64,000 bases of DNA, from the NCBI GenBank assembly GCA_963971285.1, contig OZ020248.1:6696001-6760000 (forward strand). The letters are read 5' to 3'. Below, one piece after another: positions 64 through 53,264 of the stretch (position 1 is the stretch's first letter; each line of letters starts with the position of its first letter). Under the pieces are notes generated by a model that did no database searches, was not told where the DNA came from, and saw nothing but the letters and a program-made list of their open reading frames with translations. Position numbers and translations under genes: made by a program. Source of the DNA: Astropecten irregularis. Taxonomy: Eukaryota > Echinodermata > Asteroidea > Paxillosida > Astropectinidae.

Positions 64-355
64 CAAATTGGCTGGAACAGGATTCAAACTTGTGACACCG
101 GAATACCACACTGGTGCTCTACCAACTGAGCTAGCCAGCCCTACATCTGGGGCCGGATTGTTTCAAGAATGCGATCAGTGATCCTGCTGATCGGGATCCC
201 ATTTTTAGCGTATCCTGCATGGGACATGGATTTGCAAGATCACTGATTGCGTGCCTGAAACAAACAGGCCCGTATATATGTTGGCGGTGTCCCTAATAGT
301 CAATTATCTTTGATCGAATGCCAGTCAGAAGCCATGAAGCCGCTCACATACCACT
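64..355 (-). repeat. SINE-1 (tRNA-like core) copy, interrupted
   Basis: Minus-strand copy with A box (TAGCTCAGTTGGTAGAGC) and a diverged B box. Its upstream arm (CAAAGATAATTGACTATTAG) resumes at 272-318 after a MITE insertion at 149-271, so the SINE-like copy is older than the MITE. Confidence 0.75.
149..271. mobile_element. Tourist/Harbinger-like MITE
   Basis: 123-bp fold-back element ending in AAACAAACAGGCCC, with inner arms GCGATCAGTGATC and GATCACTGATTGC. Same family as copies at 1289, 46606, 47094 and 47492. Inserted in a SINE-1 copy. Confidence 0.7.
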
Positions 356-5734: not shown

Positions 5735-6714
5735 GTCAACTCGGTCCGTAACCAACTCGGTCCGAGTCAACTCGGTCCGTGACCAACTCGGTCCGTAACC
5801 AACTCGGTCCATGACCAACTCGGTCCGTAACCAACTCGGTCCGAGGCCAACTCGGTCCGTAACCAACTCGGTCCGTGACAAACTCGGTCCGTGACCAACT
5901 CGGTCCCTATGGGAAAATGCACGCAAAAATGTCTGGTAATTTTGTTGCAGCAAAACGAGTTACGTAGTCTCGCAAATTGCGTGAATTTAACTATTTATTG
6001 AGGCCTATTTATTTATTTATTCATTTATTATCTTAAAAACATTAAAAGAACGAAAAATACATTGGCAGGTGCTGCCCAGGGCCTGAAAAAAAGTAAAAAA
6101 CAAAAAACAAACAAAAAAACCTGTCATCAAAAGACGTGCCTTCCCAACCTGCCAATTATAAATCTTATATTAAATTATGTTATGTATATACACAGATTAA
6201 TTAAAACAAAGCTAAAAAATAAAAAACAAAAACACAAAACAATCATCATTATTATTCATTAATTGATTTATTAATTTTAAACATAAAAAGCATTGCATTT
6301 GACTTCGTGTATAATTTAATTGATATTTTAATTAAAATTGTATTGTGCCATTTTATCAAATAATTATGGTATCAACATAATAAGACATAATTTGTTTCCT
6401 CACGGTTTCAGCCACAAGCAAAACATATTATGTTATGATGACATTAAAAAACATTAATGCAAGTAGCCTACATGTTGTACACTGCTGCTGCAAACTGGAT
6501 TCTTGTTTGTGTACGTTTTCCCATAGGGACCGAGTTGGTCACGGACCGAGTTGGATACGGACCGAGTTGGTCACGGACCGAGTTGGCCTCGGACCGAGTT
6601 GGCCACGGACCGAGTTAGTGACGGACCGAGTTGGCTTCGGACCGAGTTGGTCTCGGACCGAGTTGGTCACGGACCGAGTTGACTCGGACCGAGTTGGTTA
6701 CGGACCGAGTTGAC
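5735..6714. mobile_element. Fold-back element with tandem-repeat inverted termini
   Basis: Left arm 5735-5907 is about eleven copies of a roughly 16-bp unit (CCAACTCGGTCCGTAA type). Right arm 6527-6714 is the same unit inverted. The outer 60 bp of the two arms are perfect inverted repeats, and both arms meet the interior at an inverted TCCCTATGGGAAAA. The 620-bp interior is very AT-rich with no gene. No clear target duplication flanks it. Confidence 0.8.
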
Positions 6715-11770: not shown

Positions 11771-11935
11771 AAAAGAAGGTGGGTTTGCGGTGACAACAAC
11801 ATGTTATCTCTTCTGTGAGAGTGTGTGGTTCTGAGAAGAACCGGTGGTATTATCTCAACACCGGTTCTTCTCAGAACCACACACTCTCATAGAAGAGATT
11901 ACATGGTGTCACCGCAAACCTGTACCTTCTTTTAT
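11771..11935. repeat. Long hairpin of a dispersed repeat
   Basis: Two arms of about 75 bp face each other, with a perfect inner stem GTGTGTGGTTCTGAGAAGAA over CACCGGTTCTTCTCAGAACC. The right arm and its flank resemble 19510-19625. Confidence 0.7.
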
Positions 11936-13259: not shown

Positions 13260-14834
13260 TCATACATGGGACTCCCTTGATAATGGACTGACGCTGCCGT
13301 CACTGGAATTCCGTCCTGTTCGCCGTCGGTAAGCAGGGTCGTCCGGGGTGCTCGCCATCCTGTCTATGGATTCGCTCTTTGCCGATGTGAGCGGCAAGGC
13401 ATTCTTGCCGAAGCACCGGTTCACCGAGAGGTGCTCGCTACTGCGACTCTTAAAGCGGGTCTTGTCCCTGGATGTCAGTGCCTCCACCCGCTTGTTGTAG
13501 ATTCGATTCCGGCTATCTGCGTCCTGATCTTTGTCCAGTTCGTCAAGCTTGGCTTCCCGCATCACCTTGAGGATGTAATCTCGGATGAATTCCAGCGGAT
13601 CGGTCGGGCTCTCTGATATGGAGGCAGCCTTTCTTGCCATTAAATCCAGGTCTTTGGCACTGTAGCGAGGTGTCTCGGGGACCTGGTACGTGTGGTCAAA
13701 CTTGGAGTAGTCAATGTCGTACTGTTTGTCGTTCTCAGATTTTAAGTAGACCACTGAGCTTGCGAATCGGTGGCCCCAGAGCACCTCGTTAGGTAGGTAG
13801 GACGTACGGGCTTGAGTGGTGAGGCCTGTCTGCTCCACGATGCCTTCCAGGATGACGACAATCTCAAAGTCTGCATTTTCGAGCCCTTTTGCTGTGTACT
13901 CGTACAACGGACTGTCCTCATCAATTTCGTGGCACACAATAATGGGCCACACCAGGAATATCCGGTCTTCGCCCGTGTCAAAATCCAAGTCCATGTTGAA
14001 AGTGTGCAGTGGAATGATTTCACCTTCGACAGTCACCCGGGGTTTGATGAGATATGCCCGGACGTGGGCTTCAAACAGGTGAGAGTTGCGAATGTCGCCC
14101 AGCCGGAACATGAAGCAGAACCGGCCGTCCCTCAGGGCGATCACGCCATTTTTACTGAACTTCAGCGTGGCTGCGCGCTTCTTGGGCCGGGCTATCTTGG
14201 CAAATATACATCCAATCATGACGGCGTCTATCAGGCAACTGACAACGGACTGGATAACGACAACTATAATCGCATGAGGGCATGCTTCAGTCACGCTCCG
14301 ACCGCCGTAGCCAATTGTGGTCTGCGTCTCCACCGAAAACAGGAACGACGCGGTAAAAGAGTCCACATTGTCAACGCACGGCTGCCATTCTGGGTCAGTT
14401 ATGTTCCAGCTCTGGTAGTGCAAGTCCCCGTGCGCGGCCGCGATGATAAACCACAAGATGCCAAAGAGGAACCAGCTGAGCACGTAGGCTAAGGTAAAGA
14501 CGCTGAGGTTGTACCGCCACCGCAGGTCGATCAAAGTGGTGAAGAGGTCGGCGATGAGACGGTAGCCCAGGTTTTTGACATGGGTGTGGGCCACGTTGCA
14601 CACTCCGTCCTTGCTGACCAGCCGCTGCATCTGCTTGCGGCGCCGCAGCTTTCGTCGCAGCCGGTACGACCGCACCGACTCCTTCCGCTCGTGGTGGTTT
14701 GGCAGGCTGGCCGCCACGCCATTGCTGCTGTAAGCGCTCTCCGACGAGTCGCTGATGTTGCTGCCTCTCCGTTCCTCCAAAGATTCATTCTTGACATCCT
14801 CCAGCATATTCAAGCATTCCTCTTTGCCCTGCAT
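13260..14834 (-). CDS. Inward-rectifier potassium channel, Kir2/Kir3-like (KirA)
   Basis: Tetrameric plasma-membrane K+ channel subunit that passes inward current and sets resting potential. The 524-residue frame starts at the first ATG (14834); an in-frame stop lies upstream at 14877-14879. Seen: basic N-terminus (about 55-70); TM1 about 109-132 after DLRWR; extracellular sequon NIT at 144-146; pore cysteines C153 and C185; filter TIGYG 173-177 with salt-bridge partners E169 and R179; TM2 about 187-212 with rectification aspartate D203; PKKR 217-220 for PIP2. The cytoplasmic domain retains acids matching Kir2.1 E224, D255, D259 and E299 (E255, D286, D290, E330). D247, in FRLGDIRNSH, matches the GIRK2/GIRK4 sodium-site aspartate; Kir2.1 has Asn there. 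The C-terminus ESHV is a class I PDZ ligand. The coding region has no intron. Cytoplasmic sequence reads closer to Kir2 than KirB or KirC do. Function is inferred from family motifs. Confidence 0.97.
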   Translation of the reverse strand: MQGKEECLNMLEDVKNESLEERRGSNISDSSESAYSSNGVAASLPNHHERKESVRSYRLRRKLRRRKQMQRLVSKDGVCNVAHTHVKNLGYRLIADLFTTLIDLRWRYNLSVFTLAYVLSWFLFGILWFIIAAAHGDLHYQSWNITDPEWQPCVDNVDSFTASFLFSVETQTTIGYGGRSVTEACPHAIIVVVIQSVVSCLIDAVMIGCIFAKIARPKKRAATLKFSKNGVIALRDGRFCFMFRLGDIRNSHLFEAHVRAYLIKPRVTVEGEIIPLHTFNMDLDFDTGEDRIFLVWPIIVCHEIDEDSPLYEYTAKGLENADFEIVVILEGIVEQTGLTTQARTSYLPNEVLWGHRFASSVVYLKSENDKQYDIDYSKFDHTYQVPETPRYSAKDLDLMARKAASISESPTDPLEFIRDYILKVMREAKLDELDKDQDADSRNRIYNKRVEALTSRDKTRFKSRSSEHLSVNRCFGKNALPLTSAKSESIDRMASTPDDPAYRRRTGRNSSDGSVSPLSRESHV

Positions 14835-18246: not shown

Positions 18247-19326
18247 GTTCAACGCGTAACGCGCGTTGAAGTTATGTGTTCAACGTGCTGAGGTGAATAT
18301 AGATATTATGGACCGCTAATTATTGTACATTGGCGCAATAGGAAAATAACTCTTTTTGCGGAGGAGGGGTGTATGAATATTATGGTCACTCGTCATTCAG
18401 CTGAGCCCTGACAGACAAAATATACGTTTATATCTTGTCTCCAAAATGCCTCATTCAGGTAATAATGTTCTGTATTTAACCCTAATCCACCACCATATCA
18501 CAGTTTACCACTCAGTTTTTCCTGTGGTACATGTAAGTGTGGTATCCTGAATACCACAAGACACTCACTGTGTGGTTTATGTTCCTGTTCCCCCAGGAGA
18601 CTGGCAATGTAAGCAGCTCTTGTCTTGTGTGGTACAGTGTGTAAGTATAGAGGGTTAGAGATAATGTAACTCTTAGAACTTCCACGGTTTTCTATATGGC
18701 CCACATTTCACTTTTATTGAAGTTGGTCCCGATAGCCAAAATCTTGCCACAGCCAGGAGTCTGGCAAGAAAGTATAGCAGCATTGCAAGAATCGTGTGAT
18801 AGCAGAGACGATTTTCGTCGCAACATCTAACGACTTGTCTAGAAGTCTAAACATGGCCTGAAAGACCACTCACTCTTCACAAAGGATGCCCTGTATGCCG
18901 CATTATTTGATGGAAAGATTCAAACCTTATTTAATTTAAAACATGAACCTGTTTGGTCCTAACCAAGAAGTTTTCAAAATTAAAAGCAAGTCTCTGCAAA
19001 TAAAAAAAAATAAAAAATCAGGTGTAAATGTACAGTTTCCTGAATCTGCCGAAATGATGTGATGCGAATTATCCTCCCTTTAAATTAATTTTAATGGGTC
19101 AAATAATTTGAGCCGGCGAGCCACACTTCATTGAATGCTTTAAAATCCTACAATACTAGCAATAGATTTACTTTGGGGTTCTTTGGAGTTTGGAATATAT
19201 GTCAAAACAGGTGCCATCTTGTTAGCAGAATCCTCAGGTTTATTTAAGGATAGCTCCTCCTTGTACAAGACCTGTATAGTATTTAGGATTTGGCTGGCTG
19301 GCTGGCAACATCGGTACGTGTACGAA
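18247..19326. other. No gene seen
   Basis: Short frames only; AT-rich, without splice-flanked coding-like stretches. Confidence 0.35.
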
Positions 19327-22789: not shown

Positions 22790-23736
22790 CTGTGCAAAAA
22801 TAGACGATCAACGTTGAACGTATTATCCGTTCATACAACAATCTAGTACTAAGTTAAAGTAAACCATAATACGAACTGTACACACTGTATAGCCTATGCA
22901 TGCAGTACACGTGCCAATGCTGTGTAATTTTCCATTGTTAGCTAGCTCTAGAAAAAAATCTTGTAGCGCGCGCTATTAGAAGGCACTGCTTGTAAGTTAT
23001 CACAGCTTCCTCTTGATAGCGCGCCTTTGCCCGTGTAGATACACATCACACAACATTTATGCACGTATAATAAGTGCATTCTGCATCCGGTACAAATTAC
23101 GTTTACTTACAGGCGATCCATTTGGGCTGATTCATTATGTAGAGAGGGGTGGAAAACTGCTGAGAGGGATGACTCGTCATGGTGACGTCATTCAACTGAA
23201 GTAAGATTTACTATAATTCTAGATCCGGAATCATTCACCCCTTGAGTGTCTCAAAAGAGATATTTCCGTGGTTTCCAGAAAGAAACATATACAATTCAAT
23301 CGAACATATGTAAAGTAAGTAAATTGTCAACACTTGAGTGAAGTTAGGCTATCATCCACCCCCATTCAGTAAAATGACAGTGCCTTAAACTTTAGTTTTG
23401 GTTTTATCGTGGAAGGAATATTTTTTATACCATGAAGTACTAAGGAACATTACACAATTAATACTATTTTTCTTTAAAAATGAGCAATACGCAATGAATA
23501 GCTCACAATGTGAAAGATAGATAAGTTGAAACTCAAACGTGTGGTCAAATGTCCTCATTAAAACTGCATGAAATAATATTTACCGCTAGAAACATTCGAG
23601 TACAAGTCTAAAGACAATGAACAATAGAGGGCGCTATAGCAGAATAACAAGCTGAGCTCTAGAGTGGCCACGTGGGTGCGACTTGTTGACACTGTTGACA
23701 ATGACAGCAAGTGTCACCTGTAATCCTGCTAAGATC

Positions 23737-32313: not shown

Positions 32314-33150
32314 ATGACTTTCTTAGGTTCTAGCTGTCAGTCTTTCTCATGTACTAGACTGAGAAAGTCATCTAGGACATGAGAAAGTCTACTAGTTAAA
32401 TACTGAGAAAGTTAACTAATATCTCACATTGTCGACTTTCTCAGTAACTAGTAGACTTTCTCAGGTACTAGCTGCATTTTTCAGGTACTAGTTGACTTTC
32501 TTGGTTTCTAGTTGACTTTCTCAGGCACTGGTTGACTTTCTCAGTTTATACTATATGACTTTCTTGGTTTCTAGTTGACTTTATCAGGCACTGGTTGACT
32601 TTCTCAGTTTATACTAGTTGACTTTCCTTGGTTCTAGTTGACTTTCTCAGGCACTGGTTGACTTTCTCAGTTTATACTAGTTGACTTTCTTGGTTTCTAG
32701 TTGACTTTCTCAGGCACTGGTTGACTTTCTCAGTTTATACTAGTTGACTTTCTTGGTTTCTAGTTGACTTCCTCAGGCACTGGTTGACTTTCTCAGTTTA
32801 TACTAGTTGACTTTCTTGGTTTCTATTTGACTTTCTCAGGCACTGGTTGACTTTCTCAGTTTATACTAGTTGACTTTCCTTGGTTCTAGTTGACTTTACC
32901 AGGTATTAGTTGACTTTACCAGGTACTAGTTGACTTTCTTAGCCTATACTACATAATTTTCACATAGTTTACTAGTTGACTTTCTCAGGTACTATTTGAC
33001 TTTCTCAGGTAAAATCTGACTTCCTAAACTTGTTCTGACTTTCTCAGGTACTGATTGACTTTGCCAGGTACAAGCTGACTTTCTTGACCTGTATTTGACT
33101 TTCCGGAATAGTGATTGGCTTTCTCAGGCAATACTTGAACTTTCTCAGAG
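32314..33150. repeat. Minisatellite with 63-bp higher-order unit
   Basis: Repeats of a TTGACTTTCTCAG-containing unit of 20-23 bp. Three kinds of subunit recur in fixed order, giving a 63-bp super-repeat from about 32508 to 32900. At the left edge (32358-32413) the unit is inverted (GAGAAAGT). Confidence 0.85.
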
Positions 33151-38241: not shown

Positions 38242-39756
38242 TCAGACATCTGATTCTATTGACTCCCATCTGTTCGTTCCTCTTATTGTTGGCGGTGGTG
38301 ATTCAGTCTCCTCCATACCCAGAGTGACTCCGTTATACTCTGGCGGATCTTCGCTTTCCTCCTCGTAGTGGAACTTTTCCTCCATCTTCTCGGCAAACCG
38401 TAGCTCCTTGCTGGGCTTGGCTTCGTAGCCGCCCAGGTTGTCCGGGAGACTCCGTCGGCTCCGCATCCTCCCGTTGCTGATAGAGGGCCTCAGTGACTTG
38501 CCTGTCTTCTTCATGAAGTCCAGTTCGTAAGCACTGTTTCGCGGCGTGTCGGCCACGGGATACGTAACGTTGAACTGCGAGTAGTCAATGCTCAGGTTAT
38601 CTTCCGACTCTGCCATGGAGATGATATGACTGCTGAAACGATGACCCCACTTGATCTCGGAGGGGAGGTAAGAGGTACGGGCCTGCATCAGTAGACCAGT
38701 TTGCTCCACTACACCTTCCAGATACACGACTATCTCAAACGAGTTCTCAAGGAGGTCGACGTAGGAGTATTTGTACAACGGGCTCTTCTCGTTGATGACG
38801 TGAGTGATGATGAGCGGCCAGACGAGAAGGAGGTTGTCTTCGCCGGTTGAAGAACCAACATCCATGGGGTGACTGTACAACGGGATGCATTCCTCCTCCT
38901 TGGTGATCTTAGGTCGAATCAGCTTCGCACTCACCTTGGCATCGAAGATGTGGCTGGTGCGGATGTCGCCGATGCGGAACATGAAGCAGAGTTTGTTGTT
39001 CCGCTCTGCGATCACGGCGTTCCGACTGAACTTTATGGTGGCCGCTCGCTTTTTCGGACGAGCGATCTTGGCGAACACACATCCGACCAGGATGGCATCC
39101 ACTAGGGCACTGAAGACCGATTGGATAACAACTAGGGAAGCACCGATCCAGCATGCTTCGGTGACAGATCGGAAGCCGTATCCAATTGTTGTTTGCGTCT
39201 CCACAGAAAACAGAAACGCTCCCATGAAGCTGTCCACGTTGGCCACGCACGGCTCGAAATCTGTGTCATTACGGCTCAAATATCCAAGATCCTGATGCCA
39301 CCAGGCAAGGCAGTACCACAGCCCGCTGAAGCCGGCCCAGCCACTGAGGTACGCCAGGCTAAAGAACAGCAGCATCAGACGCCATCGCAGATCAATAAGA
39401 GTCGTGAATATGTCCGTCAGGAAGTCAATTTTGTACGTGGCTTTAGTGTTATGGATCACGTTGCAGGCTCCGTCCTTGTTGACTAGCCTTCTTAGTTTCA
39501 TTTTCTTCCTCATGTTGGCCTGGTGAATTATCTTCTGCACCGACCGTCGACGCTGCAGGTTCCTCGGCATGTCATTCTTTGTCACGTCACTGAAGCTCTC
39601 GGACCAGGGCAGGGAGGGTATCGTATGGTCGCTCTCCTCAAAATCTTCCGACACCGAGCAGCTTAAGCAGGGTCTGAGCTGTGCTTGCCCTGGCGGACGT
39701 GAGAATCGGATCACCTCGCACTCCCTACACTTCCTCTCTTCTGACTGGCCCAGCAT
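38242..39756 (-). CDS. Inward-rectifier potassium channel with CxxC/PPxY tails (KirB)
   Basis: 504-residue Kir channel subunit in one exon. Start is the first ATG (39756); an in-frame stop at 39769-39771 lies upstream. N-terminal extension: C10xxC13 and C30xxC33, then PSLPWSES (47-54). Core: TM1 about 127-149; extracellular sequon NDT 163-165; pore cysteines C170 and C202; filter TIGYG 190-194; TM2 about 205-229 with rectification aspartate D220; PKKR 234-237; GIRK-type sodium-site aspartate D264 in FRIGDIRTSH. Of the cytoplasmic rectification acids, the Kir2.1 E299 match is kept (E347), E224 is Asp (D272), and D255 is replaced by Ser (S303). The C-tail holds FHYEEE 462-467, like the Kir2.1 ER-export motif FCYENE; PPEY 471-474, a WW-domain ligand; and terminal ESDV, a class I PDZ ligand. 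Closest relative here is KirC, 10.6 kb upstream in its own direction. Tail functions are inferred. Confidence 0.97.
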   Translation of the reverse strand: MLGQSEERKCRECEVIRFSRPPGQAQLRPCLSCSVSEDFEESDHTIPSLPWSESFSDVTKNDMPRNLQRRRSVQKIIHQANMRKKMKLRRLVNKDGACNVIHNTKATYKIDFLTDIFTTLIDLRWRLMLLFFSLAYLSGWAGFSGLWYCLAWWHQDLGYLSRNDTDFEPCVANVDSFMGAFLFSVETQTTIGYGFRSVTEACWIGASLVVIQSVFSALVDAILVGCVFAKIARPKKRAATIKFSRNAVIAERNNKLCFMFRIGDIRTSHIFDAKVSAKLIRPKITKEEECIPLYSHPMDVGSSTGEDNLLLVWPLIITHVINEKSPLYKYSYVDLLENSFEIVVYLEGVVEQTGLLMQARTSYLPSEIKWGHRFSSHIISMAESEDNLSIDYSQFNVTYPVADTPRNSAYELDFMKKTGKSLRPSISNGRMRSRRSLPDNLGGYEAKPSKELRFAEKMEEKFHYEEESEDPPEYNGVTLGMEETESPPPTIRGTNRWESIESDV

Positions 39757-39785: not shown

Positions 39786-40559
39786 TGGCTGCCTGGAAAC
39801 AGTCGAAAGAACAAAGATCAATTGGAAAATTAGCTCACCTGAGAATCAGAAACAAAGTCCAATTGCTCAAATCATCAATTGGAAACACGAACATTTACGC
39901 TGGCCATTGTCCAATAATACCAAAATATCTACCCTATGCCAGCACCAACAAGTGATTGCTGTTTATAAGTCTTCAACCATAGTTTGTCAGAGTCCAAAGT
40001 CCTCAGAGTCAAGGACTAAAACTGATCCTGGCCAAAGATATCGAGTCATATATCCCACTGATAAGGATGTTTAATTGCCAAACAAGCATGGATAAAATAC
40101 CTCGGCCTCCCAAAGAAACATAGACTTGTTGCGACCTCACAATCCACCAAAATGTTTAGACTGTCTCATCATCGGTCTTTTTTGGTCAGATTTCAGGGCA
40201 ATGTACACTGTACGAGTGTACGTGGTAATCAAAATGCACTACATGTACGTCACTTTGACCCTGCAAGGAAGTTCTCCAAGGAAAAAACCTTGACAAAAAG
40301 ATTGGAAGTCATGTGATTGTCCCCTGGTGTCCTGTATCAGTTCACAACAGCAATATCTCTTATCAAGTTTCATCTTATGAAAAAAACAAACCTCCGGTCC
40401 AGTATGATATGTGTATATAGTATTATGCTTCAAAACAAAAACAACAAAATGAAATTTGATTCCAGTGGTGATAGCACATTTTTTTGTTCACTCTGGTTTT
40501 GCTAATGTTTTTTTAAACACATGACCCATTATCAAAATAGTAAGCACAGTATTACTAAA
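39786..40559. other. KirB upstream flank, no clear feature
   Basis: AT-rich; would be the intron of the proposed 5' UTR. Confidence 0.3.
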
Positions 40560-43213: not shown

Positions 43214-44385
43214 GGAAGTTTCTACTGGTTTTCCCCCACACAGAACACGCTTCACACACACCGGGCGTCACACATGCTCAGTCCTACTGTACTGCTGCAC
43301 ACATAGGCCTACTACCGTACTGCATTATAAACATGTACCACACATACAAGCTAAACTTCTCAAACTTTCCATGTAGACTTTCTGTCAACTATATTACCAG
43401 GAAGATGGAACCGTGGAAAGAGGAAACTGGTACCATTAACCAGCCTTGAGCCAGTATTGGCAAGCAAACATGTTAATACGAATAACAACTGTAGTTATAG
43501 ACTATAGAGATAATCAGTGTAACAATACTTACATGTAAGACGATCTTCCTAATCCCCGCTGACGGAACTACAGTCGATGGTAACAAATTCCACAAACAGG
43601 CAGGAAATTACATGTAAAATAAAAGAAGGATTAAGCACCAACCAGGAAAAAGAGAAAGTATTTACAACCTGTTGTTGATTGAGCAACGTGCATAGAATTT
43701 GGACTAGCTGCCTCGTAATGACAACTGTGCGTTGAGATAAAGGAAGTAGTTGTCCATATGTAACCCGTGCTCAGTAAGTGAAGGTTTCGAGGAACTGAGT
43801 CGGCCGGTTTTATCCCGGTGGCTTCCCCCCTAACCTGTATTTATAGTCCGTAATGGTACGTGCCGTATGTGTACGTGATTGCTGATATCCTACCATGTAC
43901 TTGTGCTGGATTGGTGTATATAAAAGCCCCCTCACCGATTGGGATCACTCATGACCTTAGACTGAATGTCTTGTGCATCACATGTCGTTGCAATGAGTCC
44001 GTGTTTAAGCTGACATCCCCTTCTCTTAATTATCCCCCTCCCCCTACCCTGACCCGACATCCCCCCACAAAGTCCTTGTGACTATTTTTATATTCATCTG
44101 GCAGTGTGGCTGAAAAGGCCTCCCTGACTTCTGTGAAAAAAAAAACATGATTAAAAGCCCTGTATTCATATCAAACTAGTCACAAAGTTTGAATAAAGTT
44201 TGAATAACTTAGAACCTGAATTTATCCATTCTGCCAAATTCTGCCCAAAGTGCCAAATTCCATGTTGTATGAATTTCAATTACTTTAAATTCAGTCAGTT
44301 TCCCTTGTTTGTGGTTATTTGATGATTATATTAATTAGAAAGGTTAAGCCGTATCCTCTTTGAGTGATCCCCCACGTACCGTTCC
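43214..44385. other. No gene; possible KirB promoter region
   Basis: CpG-bearing unique sequence at 43540-43860 holds TATA-like boxes on both strands. 44292-44335 is an isolated SINE-1 3' tail. Confidence 0.3.
43838..43845 (-). promoter_or_regulatory. TATA box, candidate KirB promoter
   Basis: The minus strand reads GGACTATAAATACAGG, a TATAAATA element 4.1 kb upstream of the KirB ATG, in a CpG-bearing non-repeat stretch (43540-43860). A donor (CAT|GTAAGT, exon end 43533) follows about 280 nt downstream and could splice to the KirB acceptor at 39768. A plus-strand TATATAAAAG lies about 75 bp away (near 43917), so the direction is not settled. Confidence 0.25.
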
Positions 44386-44600
44386 CAGGTTGCATTATTG
44401 CTGCGCATATCGATGAAATGATCCTTGGGATATGGCGGTGTGGTTTCATGAGTTCTGACTGCCAAATGAACAAAGATAATTGACTATTAAGAACACCACC
44501 AATGTAGGGCTGGATAGCTCAGTTGGTAGAGCGCCTGTACGGTATTCAGGAGGTCGCCGGTTCGAGTCCCGCTCCTGTCAATTTTTCTTTGTTCACTTAA
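44386..44600 (+). repeat. SINE-1 copy, best preserved
   Basis: A box TAGCTCAGTTGGTAGAGCGC, B box GGTTCGAGTCCC. The tRNA-like core is bracketed by inverted TGAACAAAGATAATTGAC and GTCAATTTTTCTTTGTTCA. The acceptor arms do not pair, so this is not a working tRNA gene. Confidence 0.85.
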
Positions 44601-50375: not shown

Positions 50376-51899
50376 TCAGATGTCTGATTCTGGGAACTCC
50401 ATTGTCTGTGTTGCTTTGATTCGGGGCACAAGGGGCGGTGAGATGCCGCTGTCAGAGTCCATGGATGTAATCCCGACATAGTCTGGAGGATCCTCGTCGA
50501 GATGCTGCTTAGCCTGTAACTTTTCAAGTTGTAGTTGATGAGGGCATTTGAAGTCGTCCGAGTTGTTGTTCTTCTTTGTCTTGCATTTTCCGTTAACGTG
50601 GTTCCCGTCTGGCAAGCTGTTTGTTGACGATGGAGTGCTTGCGCCAGAGGAGAGTTCCAGCTGGTAGGCGCTGCAGCTCGGCGTGCCGTCTACCGGGTAG
50701 GTGATGTTGAACTGCGAGTAGTCAACGCTGAGTTTGTTCTCTCTCTCAGCCATGGACACGATGTGACTGCTGAAACGATGACCCCACTTGATCTCCGTGG
50801 GAAGGTAGGATGTACGGGCCTGCATCACCAACCCGGTCTGCTCCACGACACCCTCGAAATAGACGATGATTTCAAAGGAGTTCTCAGCCAGGTCGGCCTT
50901 GGAGTATTTGTATAAGGGGCTCTTCTCGTCGATGACGTGGGTGATGATGAGGGGCCAGATGAGAAGGAGGTTGTTCTGGCCCAGTGACGATCCCACTTCC
51001 ATTGGGTGACTGAACAGCGGGATGCATTCCTCCTCCTGTGTGATCCGAGGTCGGATCAGCTGCGCCCGTATCCTCGCGTCAAAGATGTGGCTGGAACGGA
51101 TGTCGCCGATGCGAAACATTAGGCAGAGTTTGCCGTCCCTTGCGGCGATCACGGCACTGTGGCTGAACTTGATGGTGGCGGCACGCTTTTTGGGGCGGGC
51201 AATCTTGACGAAAATGCATCCGACGAGGATGGCATCCACCAGCGCGCTGAAGACCGACTGGATGACGACCAGGGTAGGCCCCACCCAGCATGCCTCGGTG
51301 ACGGAGCGGTAACCGTACCCGATGGTCGTCTGTGTCTCTACCGAGAACATGAATGCAGTCATGAAGCTGTCCACGTGGGCCACACAGGGCATGAAGGTCT
51401 CATCCTCCATGTCCATATAACCCAGATCCCCATGCCACAGCGCCAAACAGTACCAAATGAAGCTAAACACCAGCCAGCCCACAACATATGCCAGACTGAA
51501 AAACAACAGTAACAGGCGCCAGCGCAAGTCCACAATTGATGTGAAGGAGTCAGAAATGAAGTCGGTGGCGTAGGAGGGCTTGATGTTGTGGATGACATTG
51601 CAGGCGCCGTGTTTGTCCACCAGACGTTTGGACGCGATCTTATTCTTCTCCTCCTCATGCTTGGCCTTATTAATGGACGTCTGTGACGAGAACCACTTAG
51701 GCACCCAGTCCCTCCTCGAATTCTCCACGTAGCTCTCTGACCAAGGCAGGGACGGCTCCACTCCCCGTTCGCAATCCTCAAAACTCTCCGACACCGTGCA
51801 GCTCAGACAGGGCTTCAGATGATGCCTGTGCCCCACGGTAGTCCGTGAGTACTGCACCACCTCACACTCTCCACACTTTTTCCCATTTGGGGATGTCAT
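50376..51899 (-). CDS. Inward-rectifier potassium channel with CxxC/PPxY tails (KirC)
   Basis: 507-residue single-exon Kir channel, start ATG at 51899 with an in-frame stop upstream at 51945-51947. Same plan as KirB: C9xxC12 and C31xxC34, PSLPWSES 49-56, TM1 about 129-151, pore cysteines C172 and C204, filter TIGYG 192-196, TM2 about 207-231 with rectification aspartate D222, PKKR 236-239, sodium-site aspartate D266 (FRIGDIRSSH), PPDY 471-474 and terminal ESDI (PDZ class I). Differences: no sequon between TM1 and the pore, no FxYExE export-like motif, and both acids matching Kir2.1 D255 and D259 are lost (S305, N309), while the E299 match (E349) is kept. Weaker cytoplasmic polyamine block than KirA is therefore likely, by inference. 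KirB and KirC look like a tandem duplication, and may co-assemble since Kir channels are tetramers. Confidence 0.97.
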   Translation of the reverse strand: MTSPNGKKCGECEVVQYSRTTVGHRHHLKPCLSCTVSESFEDCERGVEPSLPWSESYVENSRRDWVPKWFSSQTSINKAKHEEEKNKIASKRLVDKHGACNVIHNIKPSYATDFISDSFTSIVDLRWRLLLLFFSLAYVVGWLVFSFIWYCLALWHGDLGYMDMEDETFMPCVAHVDSFMTAFMFSVETQTTIGYGYRSVTEACWVGPTLVVIQSVFSALVDAILVGCIFVKIARPKKRAATIKFSHSAVIAARDGKLCLMFRIGDIRSSHIFDARIRAQLIRPRITQEEECIPLFSHPMEVGSSLGQNNLLLIWPLIITHVIDEKSPLYKYSKADLAENSFEIIVYFEGVVEQTGLVMQARTSYLPTEIKWGHRFSSHIVSMAERENKLSVDYSQFNITYPVDGTPSCSAYQLELSSGASTPSSTNSLPDGNHVNGKCKTKKNNNSDDFKCPHQLQLEKLQAKQHLDEDPPDYVGITSMDSDSGISPPLVPRIKATQTMEFPESDI

Positions 51900-51945: not shown

Positions 51946-52516
51946 TATAAATCACAGATTAGCCAGCCACTTCTTCCCAATGAGATTCTGAAAAGACAAA
52001 CACAAACATTCCACTAAAATCCATTACAGACAAAAGTTCTCAAACAATCAGAATTATGACTTTTCTCTGTGTCATGCAGTAGTTAGCCTTGTGTTCCACT
52101 GTATAAGTAGTTACATCCACAGTGCTGTTTATATAAAGCACACTCAACAGTTGTGGTGGAGCGCTCAGAATGCAGTAAGGTGGCCCAACATCTGTTTATA
52201 TACCCAAATTCAGAAGCTTGGATTTAGTATGGGGAGGTCACAGAGGTCATGGTTACCACTCCAGTGCTAGCATATAATAGCAGGCACACAGGGCCTACAT
52301 CTAAGTTCTTGTATTTAATTGTGCACACAATCCTTTGGTGGAGGGGATCAAATTATTTCCTCCTGTTCCTTGATAACAAAAGGCTCAATGAAAGACACTT
52401 TGTGCTGAGTGCCAAGAGAACTGGCTGGCCTGTGCTGTGTTCTAGCAGACAATGGGACATAAAAACTTGTTTCAACCAATCAGGGACATTTTGGCTGCTG
52501 TGAAATCGGGCCGATC

Positions 52517-53129: not shown

Positions 53130-53264
53130 TGAAAAGATAATGACTATTAGGGACACCACCATCGTAGGGCTGGATAGCTCATTTGGAAAAGCGCCTGTAC
53201 GGTATTCAGGAGGTTGCAGGTTCGAATTCAGCTCCAGTCAATTTTTCTTTGTTCACTTTTTAGA
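53130..53264 (+). repeat. SINE-1 copy with inverted 5' tail
   Basis: ATGACTATTAGGGACACCAC, GGGCTGGATAGCTCATTTGG, GTTCGAATTC, TCCAGTCAATTTTTCTTTGT. Just before it, AATCATCAAATAACCACAAG is an inverted SINE-1 3' tail. Confidence 0.75.

Follow-up and report, generated by a model that had tools for sequence, protein, structure and literature searches.

Two Kir channel genes in the analysed DNA, KirB and KirC, were found to begin with a module of two CxxC pairs and the motif PSLPWSES, placed ahead of a complete Kir core. The pairing of CxxC in the two N-termini is beyond chance, and functional constraint on the module was supported by comparison of the two genes. We tentatively favor, at slightly less than an even chance, the reading of this module as a tethered cytoplasmic Cys4 knuckle that would bind zinc and have a docking or assembly role.

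The module and the Kir gene cluster

The window, that is, the whole stretch of 64,000 nucleotides analyzed, corresponds to C11:6696001-6760000 in a host genome of 475,729,200 bases and 168 contigs, which was searched as well. The window carries three Kir genes (KirA, KirB, and KirC), all on its minus strand and each encoded in a single uninterrupted stretch. Both the IRK transmembrane domain (PF01007) and the IRK_C cytoplasmic domain (PF17655), by which the Kir family is recognized, were matched in KirB and KirC. The features concerned are the following:

50376..51899, minus strand: KirC coding sequence, 507 aa plus stop (ORF; Pfam IRK E 2.4e-48, IRK_C E 2.1e-64)
51864..51875, minus strand: first CxxC of KirC, C9-G-E-C12 (sequence)
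51798..51809, minus strand: second CxxC of KirC, C31-L-S-C34 (sequence)
51732..51755, minus strand: PSLPWSES of KirC, residues 49-56, 8/8 identical in KirB (sequence, alignment)
51627..51731, minus strand: variable linker of KirC, residues 57-91, from module to channel core, 6/34 identical to KirB (alignment)
51987..51990, minus strand: acceptor-like 3' splice site ahead of the KirC ATG, putative exon start at -88 (pattern only)
38242..39756, minus strand: KirB coding sequence, 504 aa plus stop (ORF; Pfam IRK E 2.8e-51, IRK_C E 2.9e-63)
39718..39729, minus strand: first CxxC of KirB, C10-R-E-C13 (sequence)
39658..39669, minus strand: second CxxC of KirB, C30-L-S-C33 (sequence)
39595..39618, minus strand: PSLPWSES of KirB, residues 47-54 (sequence, alignment)
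39792..39795, minus strand: acceptor-like 3' splice site ahead of the KirB ATG, putative exon start at -36 (pattern only)
13260..14834, minus strand: coding sequence of KirA, a paralogue that lacks the module (ORF, Pfam, sequence)

KirC (M1 at 51899) starts with MTSPNGKKCGECEVVQYSR...HHLKPCLSCTVSESFEDC...PSLPWSESY and carries the cysteines C9/C12 and C31/C34, while KirB (M1 at 39756) starts with MLGQSEERKCRECEVIRFSR...AQLRPCLSCSVSEDFEES...PSLPWSESF and carries C10/C13 and C30/C33. The spacing is CX2C-X18-CX2C in KirC and CX2C-X16-CX2C in KirB, and in both proteins the module runs from CxEC through 16-18 residues to PCLSC, an acidic VSExFE stretch and PSLPWSES, followed by some 35 residues of variable linker and the core. 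In KirC the cysteines lie in a hydrophilic stretch some 95-120 residues ahead of TM1, the most hydrophobic 19-mer beginning at residue 130. A preliminary description of this DNA had given the cysteine positions in both proteins, which proved exact on re-reading of the sequence, as did its coordinates (51798-51899 for KirC M1-C34 and 39658-39756 for KirB M1-C33). It had also placed PSLPWSES after the CxxC pairs in both; the motif is indeed common to the two proteins, but it is not adjacent to the pairs, with 14 residues intervening in KirC and 13 in KirB. Its statement that KirA lacks the pairs agrees with the KirA sequence, in which no CxxC was found.

Behind the module, the Kir core motifs of KirB and KirC are complete, comprising the TIGYG filter, DLRWR, the TM2 aspartate (LVDA), KIARPKKR, and the outer Cys pair, and a C-terminal ESDI/ESDV is present. 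The basic motifs DLRWR and KIARPKKR are presumably the PIP2 site, and ESDI/ESDV was read, on our assumption, as a PDZ ligand. The TM2 aspartate was taken to be at the place of Kir2.1 D172, described as the TM2 rectification aspartate in excerpts of PMC4145359. These features suggested that KirB and KirC are probably otherwise canonical Kir2-like channels, and strong inward rectification would be expected of them.

The Pfam IRK and IRK_C models, with which 9 and 4 candidates, respectively, were scored in the host genome, agreed on at least four Kir genes, all arranged in tandem within a single cluster. The fourth gene, KirD (C11:6765421-6766728), extends this cluster 5.4-6.7 kb past the end of the window and encodes 426 aa from its ATG, with the filter TIGFG and the C-terminus ESRI. 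It has CNC near its start and neither a CxxC pair nor PSLPWSES, so the module is present in two of the four Kir genes found. These two are also the closest pair, with 309/492 identical positions, the remaining five pairs ranging from 141/406 to 220/470. The simplest reading is that the module was gained ahead of the KirB-KirC duplication; alternatively, it may have been lost in the other Kir genes.

At least two copies of the module, those of KirC and KirB, were detected in the host genome (KirC query at E≤0.001, KirB query at E≤10; two candidates scored with each); no donor gene for the module was found there, KirB and KirC being the only genes matched by either query. A tblastn match at 43750-43815 on the plus strand, CNPCSVSEGFEE, was considered as a third copy and rejected as chance level, because 8 of 60 Markov-shuffled windows scored as well. 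The arrangement CxxC-x10-30-CxxC was encountered at four places in a six-frame scan of the window: KirB, KirC, 18523-18582 (+), and 23041-23094 (-), the last two overlapping no Kir gene. The ten further window ORFs of at least 100 aa gave no Pfam match over the family cut-off. In viral contigs, the queries KirC, A2, and A1 gave 8, 30, and 50 pattern-matching stretches, respectively, and query A1 gave 64 in prokaryote genome contigs; none of these was confirmed, and a DNA pattern had no match in either collection. Likewise, no match was obtained in plasmids with the 60-aa module or in phages with KirC. Since these collections consist of viral, plasmid, and prokaryote DNA, absence from them says nothing on animal orthologues.

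Several other features of the same DNA were recorded. A 51-base inverted repeat at 11782-11920 (94% complementary, 12-base gap), each arm of which scores as a histone 3' UTR stem-loop, has no listed ORF of at least 100 aa within about 700 bases and is perhaps a mobile or histone-derived palindrome. A minisatellite with a 16-base unit (CAACTCGGTCCGTAAC) occupies 5737-5906, and about 600 bases past it, at 6527-6712, lies an array whose unit is close to its reverse complement, with one difference; a further tandem array at 32434-33103 has nested periods of 20, 43, 59, and 63 bases. Three tRNAs were located at 69-140 (-), 44508-44580 (+), and 53168-53240 (+), two being tRNA-Thr (ggt) and the third weaker, matched by Rfam only. 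Elsewhere in the genome, a cytochrome oxidase subunit I gene at C131:32162-33484 has no stops when read with the standard code, which sets it apart from the mitochondrial copy on C168; C131 is possibly a bacterial contig within the assembly. A partial COX1 copy with seven TGA codons at C25:9951047-9952018 may be mitochondrial DNA copied into the nuclear genome. The mitochondrial COX1 of the assembly obtained its highest score under code 9, the code of echinoderms and flatworms (503.1 bits, vs 499.6, 495.1, and 488.8 under codes 24, 13, and 5); this is consistent with an echinoderm, although by a modest margin.

Conservation and probable translation of the module

In 20,000 shuffles of each whole protein, two CxxC fell within the first 60 residues 13 times for KirC and 2 times for KirB. 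When the 88-aa N-terminus of KirB was shuffled and realigned 300 times, four cysteines came into register with KirC in 3 cases.

All conservation figures come from one paralogue pair, KirB and KirC, of a single genome. The conserved unit spans KirC residues 9-56, with 26/45 aligned positions identical to KirB, and the divergence of the flanking N-terminal sequence, already claimed in the preliminary description, was borne out by 1/8 identical positions ahead of the module and 6/34 in the linker (57-91) behind it. Identity amounted to 247/324 in the core (92-415) and 28/81 in the C-terminal tail. By Fisher tests the module was more conserved than the linker (p = 0.0004) and the tail (p = 0.015); the comparison with the core (26/45 vs 247/324, p = 0.011) went in the opposite direction, so the module is held less tightly than the channel core. 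Non-synonymous and synonymous differences were pN 0.25 and pS 0.66 in the module (KirC 9-57 vs KirB) and pN 0.53 and pS 0.66 in the linker (57-91). The dN/dS values, rough because synonymous sites are near saturation, were 0.20 for the module, 0.24 for the tail, 0.57 for the linker, and 0.12 for the core, that of the module being near that of the tail.

Both cysteine blocks of the module were kept, as was PSLPWSES, whereas the loop at KirC 16-29 retained 3/12 identical positions and changed in length by two residues. PSLPWSES (8/8) is the longest unbroken identity between KirB and KirC, and PCLSC and VSE were also kept. Positions no more than three residues from a conserved cysteine were identical in 10/16 cases, vs 19/66 elsewhere (p = 0.018). 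All four candidate cysteine ligands were retained in the only two module copies found, paralogues of one genome, and four other KirC cysteines (C43, C409, C439, and C452) are replaced by other residues in KirB, three of them (C43, C439, and C452) outside the core. The functional constraint argued earlier from conservation was supported by the low pN against a high pS and the retention of both pairs despite the change in loop length.

The combination of low pN and high pS is also an argument that the module is translated. Besides the nearest acceptor-like sites ahead of KirC and KirB, pattern matches gave a second one at -82 in KirB and one at -196 in KirA. Between the nearest acceptor-like site and the ATG, an in-frame stop is present in each gene (TAA at -48 in KirC, TAG at -15 in KirB, and one at -45 in KirA), and the same interval up to M1 contains no ATG in KirB or KirC and two in KirA; all three genes have A at position -3. 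KirC has no further Met between residue 1 and residue 162, and the splice patterns applied matched no acceptor or donor within its first 110 codons; this exon could therefore not easily yield a protein lacking the module. For KirB, splicing is excluded less firmly, since the module itself contains an acceptor-like place, near codon 21, and Met codons recur at 63, 82, and 86.

That the KirC module lies in a single coding exon and is translated with it, and likewise that of KirB, is therefore supported but not proven by these sequence patterns. Removal of the whole module by splicing appears unlikely in KirC and, less firmly, in KirB. The view that the module is left partly or wholly untranslated, whether by use of another upstream exon, by initiation further downstream, or by splicing, could draw on the later Met codons and the internal acceptor-like place of KirB, but it is highly improbable in view of the upstream acceptor-like sites, the in-frame stops, and the lack of an earlier ATG, which put M1 first in both genes, together with the intact KirC start and the substitution pattern.

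Readings of the module

The cytoplasm is reducing, which favors a metal over a disulfide, and we take the two CxxC pairs, 16-18 residues apart, to resemble zinc ribbon or zinc knuckle spacing. Kir N-termini are cytoplasmic according to excerpts of PMC11631806. A zinc site with a docking or assembly role is considered the likeliest reading because the N-terminus is cytoplasmic and its four thiols are spaced as in Cys4 knuckles and ribbons. The two pairs would wrap around a single zinc ion as a Cys4 knuckle or ribbon, and the folded knuckle, together with PSLPWSES, may form a docking or assembly element for KirB/KirC tetramers or heterotetramers, or for a partner protein, comparable to Kv T1 zinc but with a different motif. 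We infer zinc, fold, and docking for this module, zinc from the cysteine spacing alone. The zinc reading is favored by both pairs being kept, 18 (KirC) or 16 (KirB) residues apart, across a diverged loop, and by the absence from KirB of counterparts to C43, C439, and C452, unlike the module pairs. Against it count the full identity of PSLPWSES, which zinc does not explain, the comparison of two sequences only from one genome, the lack of a Pfam family, the weaker conservation relative to the core, and a dN/dS little different from the value for the C-terminal tail, with synonymous sites near saturation. The identity of PSLPWSES would suit a disordered tail instead, one carrying two or three short linear motifs (around PCLSCxVSExFE and PSLPWSES) for phosphorylation, trafficking, or docking and no metal, a reading that we regard as possible though rather unlikely. 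Consistent with it are the retention of PCLSC and VSE, serines that adjoin acidic residues, and the absence of a zinc family match in Pfam, but linear motifs do not by themselves explain why CxEC is kept 16-18 residues ahead of PCLSC despite a changing loop.

A redox or nitrosylation sensor, in which the vicinal CxxC thiols would form disulfides or be modified and so alter gating or surface level, is unlikely. The redox cysteines known from other Kir channels (Kir1.1 C49, Kir2.1 C54/C76, and Kir6.1 C43) presumably sit within or beside the channel core, and Kir1.1 C49 and Kir2.1 C54 probably correspond to the core cysteine of GACNV (C100 in KirC and C98 in KirB) and not to the module, which about 35 residues of variable linker separate from the core. 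Such a sensor has a precedent in the single cysteines of Kir1.1, Kir2.1, and Kir6.1, some of them N-terminal, that respond to thiol reagents, oxidants, or NO (excerpts of PMC11631806). S-palmitoylation pinning the tail to the membrane was judged very improbable, the KirC cysteines being far ahead of TM1 in hydrophilic surroundings. Moreover, lipidation needs no strict CxxC spacing. Its precedents are the palmitoylated N-terminal cysteines of AQP4 and the palmitoylation of Kir6.2 at C166, as given in part of PMC9409123. It is also doubtful that the branch of KirB and KirC gained a built-in Cys4 sensor through which cytosolic zinc or oxidant would act on assembly or gating; zinc or oxidant sensing by an N-terminal Cys4 module was not found described for Kir channels in the literature searched.

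Kir channels, which set the resting potential, are under the control of lipids, nucleotides, G proteins, pH, and polyamines. A dedicated N-terminal metal or redox module, if true, would add an input to them. Anomalous (inward) rectification in starfish eggs, an old preparation, was reportedly described by Hagiwara et al. in 1976; if the genome is that of an echinoderm, the four Kir genes, two of which carry the module, are natural candidates for inward currents of the starfish-egg type.

Comparison with known systems

No Pfam family matched the N-terminus of KirB or KirC at E≤10, a search in which HMMER filters drop most weak matches. The PDB matches of the N-terminus (TNF-receptor-16, BiP, and pyrrolysyl-tRNA-ligase, E 0.22-4.5) were rejected as chance level, and the module was accordingly placed in no known zinc-binding family. 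For none of the 59 PDB sequences that KirC matched at E≤0.001 does the best-matching stretch start before residue 81, which, within the PDB, upholds the earlier impression that the module is foreign to described Kir channels; for KirB, the stretches start no earlier than residue 68 (27 PDB sequences matched at E≤1e-60). In literature whose coverage excludes most subscription journals, no paper was found on an N-terminal zinc-binding CXXC motif of Kir channels, the sole match for inward rectifier and CXXC motif concerned the CxxC of thioredoxin, and no paper on echinoderm Kir sequences was among the matches listed. An N-terminal Cys module on a Kir channel is apparently new, not having been found described in the literature searched, the PDB, or Pfam.

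Zinc ribbons commonly have the CPxCG form, which the CxxC pairs of KirB and KirC lack, and the module differs from zinc ribbon and knuckle domains in matching no Pfam model. The T1 zinc site of Kv2, Kv3, and Kv4 is similar as a cytoplasmic N-terminal cysteine metal site in a tetrameric K+ channel, the metal of KirB and KirC being a prediction. According to excerpts of PMC9159280, zinc in Kv T1 domains is needed for assembly or stabilizes it, and the motif, set in a BTB fold, is HX5CX20CC. The two Kir proteins differ in having CX2C-X16/18-CX2C; identity with the Kv T1 site was ruled out, as HX5CX20CC and a CC pair are absent from KirB and KirC and Pfam gave them no BTB match at E≤1. The redox cysteines of Kir1.1, Kir2.1, and Kir6.1 are likewise cytoplasmic N-terminal Kir cysteines (excerpts of PMC11631806), but they are single residues and not a CxxC module. 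Finally, the difference from the Kir2 family (Kir2.2/KCNJ12, Kir2.1/KCNJ2) lies in the module itself, since the best-matching PDB stretches are all behind it in KirC and KirB and none spans it. The likeness is found in the remainder of the protein: Kir2.2 is the top PDB match for KirA, KirB, and KirC, and the filter, the slide-helix arginines, the TM2 aspartate, PKKR, the outer cysteines, and the C-terminal ESxI/V are shared with that family.
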